Of a DNA stretch of 64,000 nt, positions 7,085-12,700 are shown in pieces. Under the pieces are notes generated by a model. It worked only from the letters and a program-made list of their open reading frames with translations, was not told where the DNA came from and ran no database searches. The first letter of the stretch is position 1. Each line of letters opens with the position of its first letter. The position numbers and the translations under genes were made by a program. This DNA is from Oceanidesulfovibrio marinus (lineage in GTDB: Bacteria > Desulfobacterota > Desulfovibrionia > Desulfovibrionales > Desulfovibrionaceae), in contig NZ_CP039543.1 in the NCBI RefSeq assembly GCF_013085545.1, positions 1,178,001 through 1,242,000 of the forward strand, given 5' to 3'.

Positions 7085-7129
7085 GGGCGGAGCATGAAAT
7101 GCAATTCGAAATTGCCTCATGCCCCGCCC
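7085..7129. repeat. Long imperfect palindrome between msrA and opgG
   Basis: The outer arms 7085-7097 and 7117-7129 pair over 13 positions with one mismatch, and an inner perfect six-base stem (GCAATT/AATTGC, 7101-7115) sits in the loop. On the minus strand it lies after the msrA stop and before opgG. No clean T-run follows, so it may be a weak terminator, an mRNA-stabilising hairpin or a 5' leader element of opgG. Confidence 0.6.
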
Positions 7130-7170: not shown

Positions 7171-7965
7171 TCAGCGCCCCTGTACGGCATCGCGCAGCAT
7201 TTGTTGTGCTTCCGGAGAAAGTCCTAATGACGGCAGCTCGTTATTGAGATTATCGCTGCTGCCGTATCCACCGAGATAGCCGTTGACCCGCGCCACGGCC
7301 GTGGAGTCCCGGAACTCCGCTGCATCCGGATAAATGGCGTAATATTCCGAGGCGATGGGACCGAACCGCCGCAGCATGTACTTCTGATGATAATCCTCTG
7401 CCGGCCAGAACACCGGAGCAGGCAATATTTCCGTATACACGGTCTTGCCCGACTGCGCCTCGCGCCTGGCCTTGCCCTGCTCGGCCGCTTCCCGCTGCGC
7501 CTCGGAGTGGTAGAAGATCACCGATTTGTACTGTTGGGAGAACGCAGGCGTAGTCGGGTTGTGGTCGCGCCAGAATTCGTCCAGCAGCTCGTCGTATGAT
7601 ATTATCTCAGGATCAAAAACAATCTCTAACGTTTCGGTATGATTGCCGAGCTGGTGGTACGTAGGGTTCTGCAACTTACCACCGGCATAGCCCACGCGGG
7701 TGCGCACAACGCCGTCAAGACGCCCGAACCGAGCGTCAGGTCCCCAGAATCAACCCAGGCCAAAGGTGGCGACTTCTGTACGGGGGTGCTTTTGGGCGTC
7801 GATAGTTGGTTTGGACAGTGTCGAAGTTACGTGCATGGAAGGATACTCCAGTACGTTTTGGGGCACGGGGCACGTTGTGCCCGATGCGAATGCCGGCGTG
7901 GCGAGGCCGAAAACTTCTCCGATGACAAACAATGATAGAACGAACGCCATCAGAATCGCGTGCAT
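7171..7965 (-). CDS. msrA: Predicted selenocysteine-containing exported peptide methionine sulfoxide reductase A (in-frame TGA)
   Basis: MsrA reduces methionine-S-sulfoxide in proteins through a catalytic residue in the motif GCFWG. Here that motif reads G-TGA-F-W-G: the TGA at 7750-7752 replaces the cysteine codon (residue 72), and the frame stays open on both sides from 7965 to 7171. Downstream, VRTRVGYAGGK, NPTYHQLGNHTETLEIVFDP and the FWPAEDYHQKY block are standard MsrA. A hairpin fitting a bacterial SECIS follows the TGA. The ATG at 7965 follows GAGAGG; a GTG six bases further upstream is an alternative. A signal peptide (residues 1 to about 28, ending AFA-S) predicts a periplasmic enzyme. 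No cysteine lies after the Sec position, so no classical resolving cysteine is present. Conventional gene calling would truncate it. Confidence 0.85.
7719..7737 (-). promoter_or_regulatory. Putative bacterial SECIS hairpin in msrA
   Basis: In the mRNA, GACGCUC pairs with GGGCGUC over seven base pairs (one G-U) and closes a five-base loop GGUUC. The first loop G is 20 bases after the A of the UGA codon, inside the 16-37 base window, and G in the first loop positions is the known bacterial SECIS requirement for SelB recognition. Confidence 0.7.
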
Positions 7966-11539: not shown

Positions 11540-12700
11540 CCGATCCGGTACCAACGTGAGAATCGCCATTTTTATTTCGCACCAACGTGGCAAAAAGCCC
11601 GTCGCGACTTCTCTATGGCTGCGCGGCCAGCGGGCGATACGGCCGCTGCTCCACGCTCAGCCTCCACAAAATCACCACCAGCCGCCGCGCCTTGGCCCCG
11701 GCATCCCGCTGAACCCAGATCCACGCCGCCTCCACGAGCAGACTTCGCAGCCGCCGTTGCCCGACCGGCATGATCCGGCCGCGCCCTTGTCGTTCGCCGC
11801 TCTGGCGCACCGTCGGCGCAAGCCCCACGTAGCTCGCCACCTGTCCGGCGTGGGCGAAGCGCTCCGGACGGAAGAGTTCCAGGCGGAACGTTTCCGCCAC
11901 GATGAGGCCGATCCCCGGCGCGGTGCGCAGACAGCGCGTCGTCTCGGCGTGGCGCGCGTCGCGGAGGAGCTCGGCCAGCTTTGCTTCGACACGGCGTAGC
12001 TCGCCGGTCTGAAAATCCAGCTCGCGCAGATGACTGCCGAGGGTATCGCGAACCGCTGGCTTCAAGTCCAGCGATTCGAGCGCGGCCACGGCGCTACGGC
12101 TCCAGTTGGCAAGGCCAGGCGGCTCGGCCGCGCCGTGCAAAAGGAGCAGGCCCTTGATCCGTTGCTTGACCCGGCGCACCGCGTCCACGAGCTGGTGGCG
12201 TCGCCGCAGCAGGCCGCGTTCGGCTTCTTCACGCGGCGTGGGCACGGCGATCGGCTGGAGCAGGCCTTTGGCCGCGAACTGTGCGAGCTTCAGGCAGTCG
12301 AGCCGATCGGTCTTTGTGCTGGCCACCACTGGCCGCGGGGTGCGGCTCGGGCGGCGACGATGACGGCAATACCGGCCGCCTCGCAGGCGCGGGCCAGGCC
12401 GAATCCCGTGGGGCCGGCCTCGTGGGCGAGGACGCGGATGCGTAAGCCCGCCTCGATCAGGCGACGGATGAAACCTTCCGGGTTGGCGGGGGCCACGAAC
12501 GTGGTCCGGCGGCAGTCTGCGCAGAGCAGCGCCGCATGATAGCTGCGTTTGTGGACATCCACACCGACGACGATGGATTCGCCGCGAACCTACTCGGCAA
12601 AACGGACGAACTGTGCTTCAGATATACGTGCCCCATGCTGCCCTCCTGGCCTTGGTTTACCTGGACTATGCTCCAGAGGAAGGGGGGAGGTCAGCATGGT
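11540..12700 (-). mobile_element. IS110-family insertion sequence (ends approximate)
   Basis: The element lies between the pilin terminator and the sigma-54 activator gene. Ends are approximate because IS110 elements lack clear terminal inverted repeats and target duplications. It is GC-rich compared with the neighbouring intergenic DNA and separates the pilin gene from the rest of the pilus locus. Confidence 0.55.
11613..12562 (-). pseudogene. IS110-family transposase, disrupted by a one-base frameshift
   Basis: The N-terminal DEDD domain is read in one frame from about 12562 (VGVDVHK, then HEAGPTGFGLAR) and continues in another frame from about 12350 (STKTDRLDCLKLAQF), followed by the C-terminal Transposase_20 domain with RTAPGIG and ASYVGLAPTVRQSG. 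Comparing the frames shows that one extra C/G at the run 12349-12351 would restore continuity between VIVAA and PSRTPRPVVASTKTD. The C-terminus is complete (RRLVVILWRLSVEQRPYRP), so only the frameshift, and possibly a lost start, inactivates it. A sequencing error in the homopolymer is an alternative. Confidence 0.85.

Follow-up and report, generated by a model that had tools for sequence, protein, structure and literature searches.

The stretch of Oceanidesulfovibrio marinus DNA analyzed here, referred to as the window, is 64,000 nucleotides long. On its minus strand, positions 7965-7171 translate as a single frame of 264 codons followed by a TGA stop, and the sole internal stop of this frame is another TGA at 7752-7750, at residue 72. 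The features of the gene are:

7171..7965, minus strand: Sec-MsrA gene (predicted), 264 codons plus TGA; PMSR on residues 66-199, PF20939 on residues 217-258
7885..7965, minus strand: probable signal peptide, about residues 1-27; Kyte-Doolittle maximum 3.11, cleavage after TPAFA guessed by eye
7870..7872, minus strand: Cys32, the sole Cys besides the Sec position; partnership with Sec72 speculative
7750..7752, minus strand: in-frame TGA, predicted to be read as Sec, residue 72; the same codon is TGA in 47 loci and TGC/TGT in 69
7719..7737, minus strand: SECIS-like hairpin with a stem of 7 pairs; its loop, GGUUC, starts at base 20 past the UGA

The TGA at residue 72 stands at the catalytic Cys position of the GCFWG motif, which becomes FGLG-U-FWGPD here (...ATFGLG-U-FWGPDARF... 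in the translation). Homology to MsrA was found on both sides of it: the Pfam PMSR domain matched residues 66-199 across the TGA (3.1e-43), and PF20939 (MsrA_helical), the Pfam entry for the selenoprotein MsrA helical domain, matched residues 217-258 (4.9e-6; 26.7 bits against a cut-off of 23.7). The initial annotation had described MsrA sequence that continues for 264 codons around G-TGA-FWG and a protein without a resolving cysteine after the Sec position. Both descriptions hold. There is no Cys after Sec72, and the only Cys of the protein, left out of that annotation, is Cys32, 40 residues before Sec72. Translation table 11 breaks the gene, and the list of open reading frames (80 residues or more) has just a 178-residue piece beginning after the TGA. 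Because a TGA taken as a stop cuts the gene to a fragment, this gene, like its relatives, is easily overlooked.

The gene is flanked by an MdoG gene and a RecF/RecN/SMC-type gene, and no Msr neighbor was found beside it. Sigma-70-like and terminator-like sites near it were no more frequent than expected by chance. An inverted repeat with one mismatch, GGGCGGAGCATGA...TCATGCCCCGCCC, was seen by eye at 7085-7129 between the MsrA and MdoG genes; it is absent from the output of the terminator scan, and the listed MdoG frame, whose start codon is uncertain, begins inside it at 7104. An IS110/IS116-type transposase is encoded at 11616-12329 on the minus strand. Across the 47 loci whose catalytic codon is TGA, a neighboring gene clustered as one family in nine; eight of these nine were scanned, and each has an MsrB (SelR) domain.

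These 47 loci comprise the window gene and 46 others. In the same subfamily 69 loci have TGC or TGT at this codon, and 27 loci are canonical Cys forms; the tally stood at 14 TGA among 110 loci, and all 33 new loci from the phylum and class searches then carried TGA. In the family of O. marinus 150 of the 199 genomes had a match at E<=1e-10. Among the matches listed, only three of the family genomes carry TGA, O. marinus included, and the best TGA-free match has an E-value of 5.5e-36. The other genome of the genus in that search (G010) gave only a stop-free match (1.0e-29). At E<=1e-40, 28 of the 395 genomes of the phylum and 9 of the 348 genomes of the class were matched, every one of them with TGA (28/28 and 9/9, O. 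marinus included in each). A search of genome contigs gave 11 TGA and 69 TGC/TGT loci among the best 80 of 206 loci, a ratio that is not a natural frequency because the Cys was part of one search pattern. The 11 TGA loci belong to Chloroflexota, Acidobacteriota, Planctomycetota, Actinomycetota, Verrucomicrobiota and Thermodesulfobacteriota. Two of the Cys forms (L056 and L058) are from Thermodesulfobacteriota/Desulfobacterota by title, so not every subfamily member there has Sec. The Cys forms (L056-L132; among the best 80 of 206 loci) are rich in halophiles, namely haloarchaea, Halanaerobium, Salinibacter, Salinicoccus and haloalkaliphilic Thermoplasmata.

The sequence after the TGA was compared in seven pairs. 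The dN/dS ratios were 0.04, 0.15, 0.10, 0.24, 0.09, 0.15 and 0.28, the last for the window gene with L024; they are rough in five of the seven pairs because dS is 1 or more there. The codons downstream of the TGA are under purifying selection. Where the initial annotation had considered that relatives might decay after the TGA, conserved and selected sequence was found instead. A change of TGC or TGT to TGA needs only one base, Cys forms do exist, and the same genome holds another MsrA, a Cys-type protein that looks by eye like an MsrA-MsrB fusion with a hydrophobic N-terminal segment; the window gene could on these grounds be a dead gene with a nonsense mutation at its Cys codon. Its frame, however, is intact to the end, the TGA is shared with 46 other loci, 11 of which come from named genomes spread over six phyla, and the low dN/dS range of 0.04-0.28 includes a pair with the window gene itself. 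We give this pseudogene explanation almost no weight. An error at one base was also considered since the genome is represented here by a single assembly. The same codon is TGA in the other 46 loci, found in other assemblies, and the hairpin described below goes with TGA as a group, which makes a sequencing or assembly error very unlikely, to the point that we set it aside.

A quick tree was built from 116 subfamily rows and 6 canonical rows. It parts the subfamily from canonical MsrA with a support of 99. Six changes between Sec and Cys are needed on this tree, in which 54 of the 118 inner branches are weak, and its starred branches force only one. Measured by path, the closest neighbors of the window are rows of Chloroflexota and of other families in the same phylum, and the highest identity to the window protein (58%) is that of L024, from its own family. 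The window is in none of the starred sets, and the tree therefore does not distinguish vertical descent from transfer.

Within the TGA group 30 of the 47 loci have no Cys after Sec and 17 have one or more. Two or three C-terminal Cys residues were observed in L139, L149, L151, L157, L158 and L160, with partial agreement between lineages in where they lie after Sec (165/190; 161/193/201), and these may possibly be resolving cysteines. L149 (G593, from the same phylum as the window) has two TGAs in its MsrA, one at the catalytic Cys and one at the motif Trp (GUF-TGA-G). Its frame is otherwise open, and the second TGA would be an error, a mutation or a double recoding.

The O. marinus genome (4,761,435 bases in one contig) contains the machinery for Sec insertion. 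The selB gene (2450025-2451914; 370.8 bits, 1.0e-110) and the selA gene (2454526-2455869; 610.4 bits, 2.2e-183) both scored over the cut-off. A tRNA-Sec at 1415085-1415173 scored 81.8 bits (gathering score 47), and ARAGORN assigned it the anticodon TCA. The selD gene (325026-325961; 331.4 bits, 7.4e-99) itself has one in-frame TGA, as do two of this genome's three formate dehydrogenase alpha genes that passed the cut-off. SelA, SelB, tRNA-Sec and SelD are therefore all encoded, and the search for selA, selB, selC and selD that the initial annotation had proposed found the full set. The bases 13-48 from the TGA fold with -14.3 kcal/mol in selD and with -12.0 and -10.3 kcal/mol in the fdhA genes, values that serve as illustration only since other TGA triplets gave -1.4 to -13.4. 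Across the subfamily, 12 of 14 TGA-form genomes and 9 of 35 Cys-form genomes had a selA scoring over the cut-off (Fisher 0.0002). Ten archaeal genomes were then left out because archaea are not known to use SelA, and the comparison became 12/14 against 9/25 (0.006). The two TGA genomes without a selA match over the cut-off, those of L059 and L062, are both MAGs.

The hairpin after the TGA lies at 7737-7719, with the arms GACGCTC and GGGCGTC and a 5-base loop, GGTTC, which has G first and begins at the 20th base after the UGA, as the initial annotation had placed it. In the bSECIS model as given in the passages of PMC13188914 on this element, the apical loop is small, has a G at position 1 or 2 and is mostly 16-37 nt from the UGA. 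The loop GGUUC at base 20 agrees with this, and the GUU triloop that RNAfold produced on the isolated hairpin by an extra G-C pair within the loop is also G-first. When the arms were counted in a fixed register (bases 16-22 and 28-34 from the T of TGA), those of the window paired fully (7/7), which occurred in 0.65% of 2000 synonymous recodings with the gene's own codons. The fold of bases 13-39 was equaled by 5.6% of 2000 recodings and, in a second run, by 3.4% of 1000. Dinucleotide shuffles gave z values of -4.31 for a 23-base piece, -2.33 for a 29-base piece and -0.08 for a 48-base piece. Taken alone, the window hairpin is borderline against synonymous recoding. A scan of the 64-kb window at the Rfam gathering thresholds had no matches, a result that is neutral and speaks neither for nor against the hairpin.

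The fixed-register count misses hairpins that are shifted by one base, as in L161-L165 (one family), or bulged, as in L024, the nearest family relative, with 3/7 fixed-register pairs; free folding against recodings was therefore used as well. By this measure (bases 13-39) the median z was -2.41 for the 47 TGA loci and -0.23 for the 69 Cys loci, with a Mann-Whitney value of 3e-16 that is too small because the loci are related. The recoding P was below 0.05 in 35/47 TGA and 7/69 Cys loci, and the fold beat 90% of the recodings in 43 of the 47 TGA loci as compared to 9 of the 69 Cys loci (42/47 and 9/69 when rerun with 500 recodings). L024 (0.31 and 0.36) and L164 (0.43) did not fold better than their recodings. 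Six or seven fixed-register pairs were counted in 20/47 TGA loci and in 1/69 Cys loci. A count of six or more stem pairs around the loop in the minimum-energy fold separated the groups poorly (47/47 vs. 58/69). Of the 47 TGA loci, 34 have the loop GGTTC and 8 have AGTTT. Pair 19/31 is T-A in 26 TGA loci and G-C in 8, and pair 18/32 is C-G in 22 of the 47, A-T in 4, T-A in 3, G-C in 1, T-G in 4 and unpaired in 13. These two-sided changes keep the pairing and partly follow amino-acid changes. The outermost pairs are standard in fewer loci (16/34 in 15/47, 17/33 in 21/47). A tree-based paired test of hairpin against Sec had six pairs on all branches and one on well-supported branches, and with one pair it cannot reach significance. 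L058, a Cys form (TGC) from a selA-bearing Syntrophobacterales MAG, also folds better than its recodings (0.022); its hairpin is perhaps a relic SECIS after a recent change from Sec to Cys.

Near-cognate read-through takes place in bacteria, and the UGA of the window gene could in principle be read as Trp or Cys instead of Sec. Against this stand the full Sec machinery, a hairpin that goes with the TGA form, the presence of Cys at this position in the 69 subfamily and 27 canonical loci, and the use of TGA as the terminator of the MsrA gene itself. We consider non-Sec read-through highly improbable. With the catalytic-codon TGA, the conserved coding after it, the hairpin, the complete machinery and the domain match all directly observed, the window MsrA is, as far as sequence can tell, almost certainly a selenoprotein, the reading that the initial annotation had called probable; the 46 other TGA loci and the behavior of the hairpin as a group strengthen it.

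The AlphaFold2 model of the protein has a mean pLDDT of 88.8, with 90 or more at 212 of 264 residues. It shows helices between residues 196 and 262 and is of low confidence over about the first 50 residues, with residues 22-33 under 50. The seven best PDB matches are all chains of CoMsrA, the selenoprotein MsrA of Clostridium (Alkaliphilus) oremlandii (PDB 4lwj, 4lwk, 4lwl, 4lwm, 4u66), with TM scores of 0.89-0.90 on the target and 42-43% identity; for 7c13_A the entry is titled as a glutaredoxin structure and the molecule name is MsrA. Ranks 8-45 were other MsrA or MsrAB entries and CoMsrA with the helical domain deleted. Glu111, 39 residues from the catalytic residue, falls at the place of CoMsrA Glu55 and is invariant across 46 aligned sequences.

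The N-terminus reaches a 12-residue Kyte-Doolittle maximum of 3.11, and the window MsrA probably has a signal peptide and is exported. A strongly hydrophobic N-terminus supports the periplasmic location in the initial annotation; the signal peptide itself was judged by hydrophobicity. An exported look (hydrophobicity of 1.8 or more) was found for 30/47 TGA loci and 15/69 Cys loci, and among the N-termini of the TGA loci there were 10 with a lipobox-like site and 7 with an RRxF-like motif; these export tests are heuristics resting on uncertain start codons. At least one Cys lies within 60 residues before Sec in 27 of the 47 TGA loci, the lipobox ones included. In L024 it is at the same distance (40 residues) as Cys32 in the window, and in L153-L156 and L159 it is 52-53 residues before Sec, near the end of the hydrophobic part. 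That Cys32 is a partner of Sec72 is speculative. The AlphaFold2 model does not place Cys32 and is therefore silent on a Sec72-Cys32 bond. Among the matches listed from the open-access literature, no description of an exported or periplasmic Sec-MsrA was recognized in the titles and the beginnings of the abstracts.

We think it very probable that the window gene encodes a selenoprotein: an exported peptide methionine-S-sulfoxide reductase with a single selenol, of the same type as the C. oremlandii MsrA. Its Sec insertion, export and activity we infer, and its reductant we guess. When ribosomes arrive at the UGA at codon 72, SelB and Sec-tRNA-Sec, made by SelA with selenophosphate supplied by SelD, would bind the hairpin just downstream and Sec would be inserted. 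The exported protein would then fold with its active site held by the helical domain, and Sec72, aided by Glu111, would attack methionine-S-sulfoxide to give methionine and a selenenic acid. A periplasmic thiol protein supplied across the membrane may reduce the selenenic acid (over the cut-off the genome has one DsbD_TM match, a DsbD-like protein, and three glutaredoxin-like matches), or the reduction may go by way of a Sec-Sec dimer or a Sec72-Cys32 bond. Glutaredoxin is a cytosolic protein. For the phylum of the window as a whole we suggest, tentatively and as an idea that may well prove wrong, that Sec-MsrA is mainly exported (as a soluble periplasmic protein, a lipoprotein or a Tat-like substrate by lineage), that it would form a selenium-dependent route of protein repair beyond the cytoplasm, that a periplasmic thiol relay recycles it in place of cytosolic glutaredoxin, and that in some lineages an N-terminal Cys close to the signal peptide (Cys32 here) is an in-chain partner of the selenol. 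Export, if real, raises the question of how a lone oxidized selenol gets re-reduced outside the cytoplasm. With 47 TGA and 69 Cys genes, this one subfamily offers a natural series on what drives the exchange of Sec and Cys.

The canonical Cys-type MsrA and MsrAB proteins share the catalytic fold with the window protein and presumably its reaction. They differ in a GCFWC motif and in having 2-4 Cys after the catalytic one (27 family loci; counted to the end of the frame, fused MsrB parts included). The window gene also fits the bacterial selenoprotein MsrA known from surveys. In the relevant passages of a 2026 review of the prokaryotic selenoproteome, MsrA with a GUFWG/H motif is noted in certain bacteria (PMC13188914), and MsrA is among the selenoprotein families in those of the Global Ocean Sampling survey (PMC2398784); these passages make no mention of MsrA export, whereas the window protein is probably exported. 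The closest known system is CoMsrA. Its active site is FALG-U/C-FWGPD, and like the window protein it has no Cys after Sec, a C-terminal helical domain and a Glu 39 residues from the catalytic residue; the two proteins are 42% identical over 202 alignment columns, with a TM score of 0.90 on the target. According to the passages on the enzyme in PMC4333827 and PMC4479559, CoMsrA is 20-fold more active with Sec than with Cys, requires the helical domain for activity, depends on Glu55, and is recycled by glutaredoxin but not thioredoxin, partly via a dimer joined at the catalytic residues. CoMsrA has 209 residues, no Cys and Sec at residue 16, whereas in the window protein Sec comes 56 residues later, and the part before it includes a hydrophobic stretch and a single Cys. 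A 1-Cys Sec-MsrA with this domain layout is already characterized, and the window gene is not new in kind; what appears less familiar, in comparison with the known Sec-MsrA proteins, is its apparent export from the cytoplasm.
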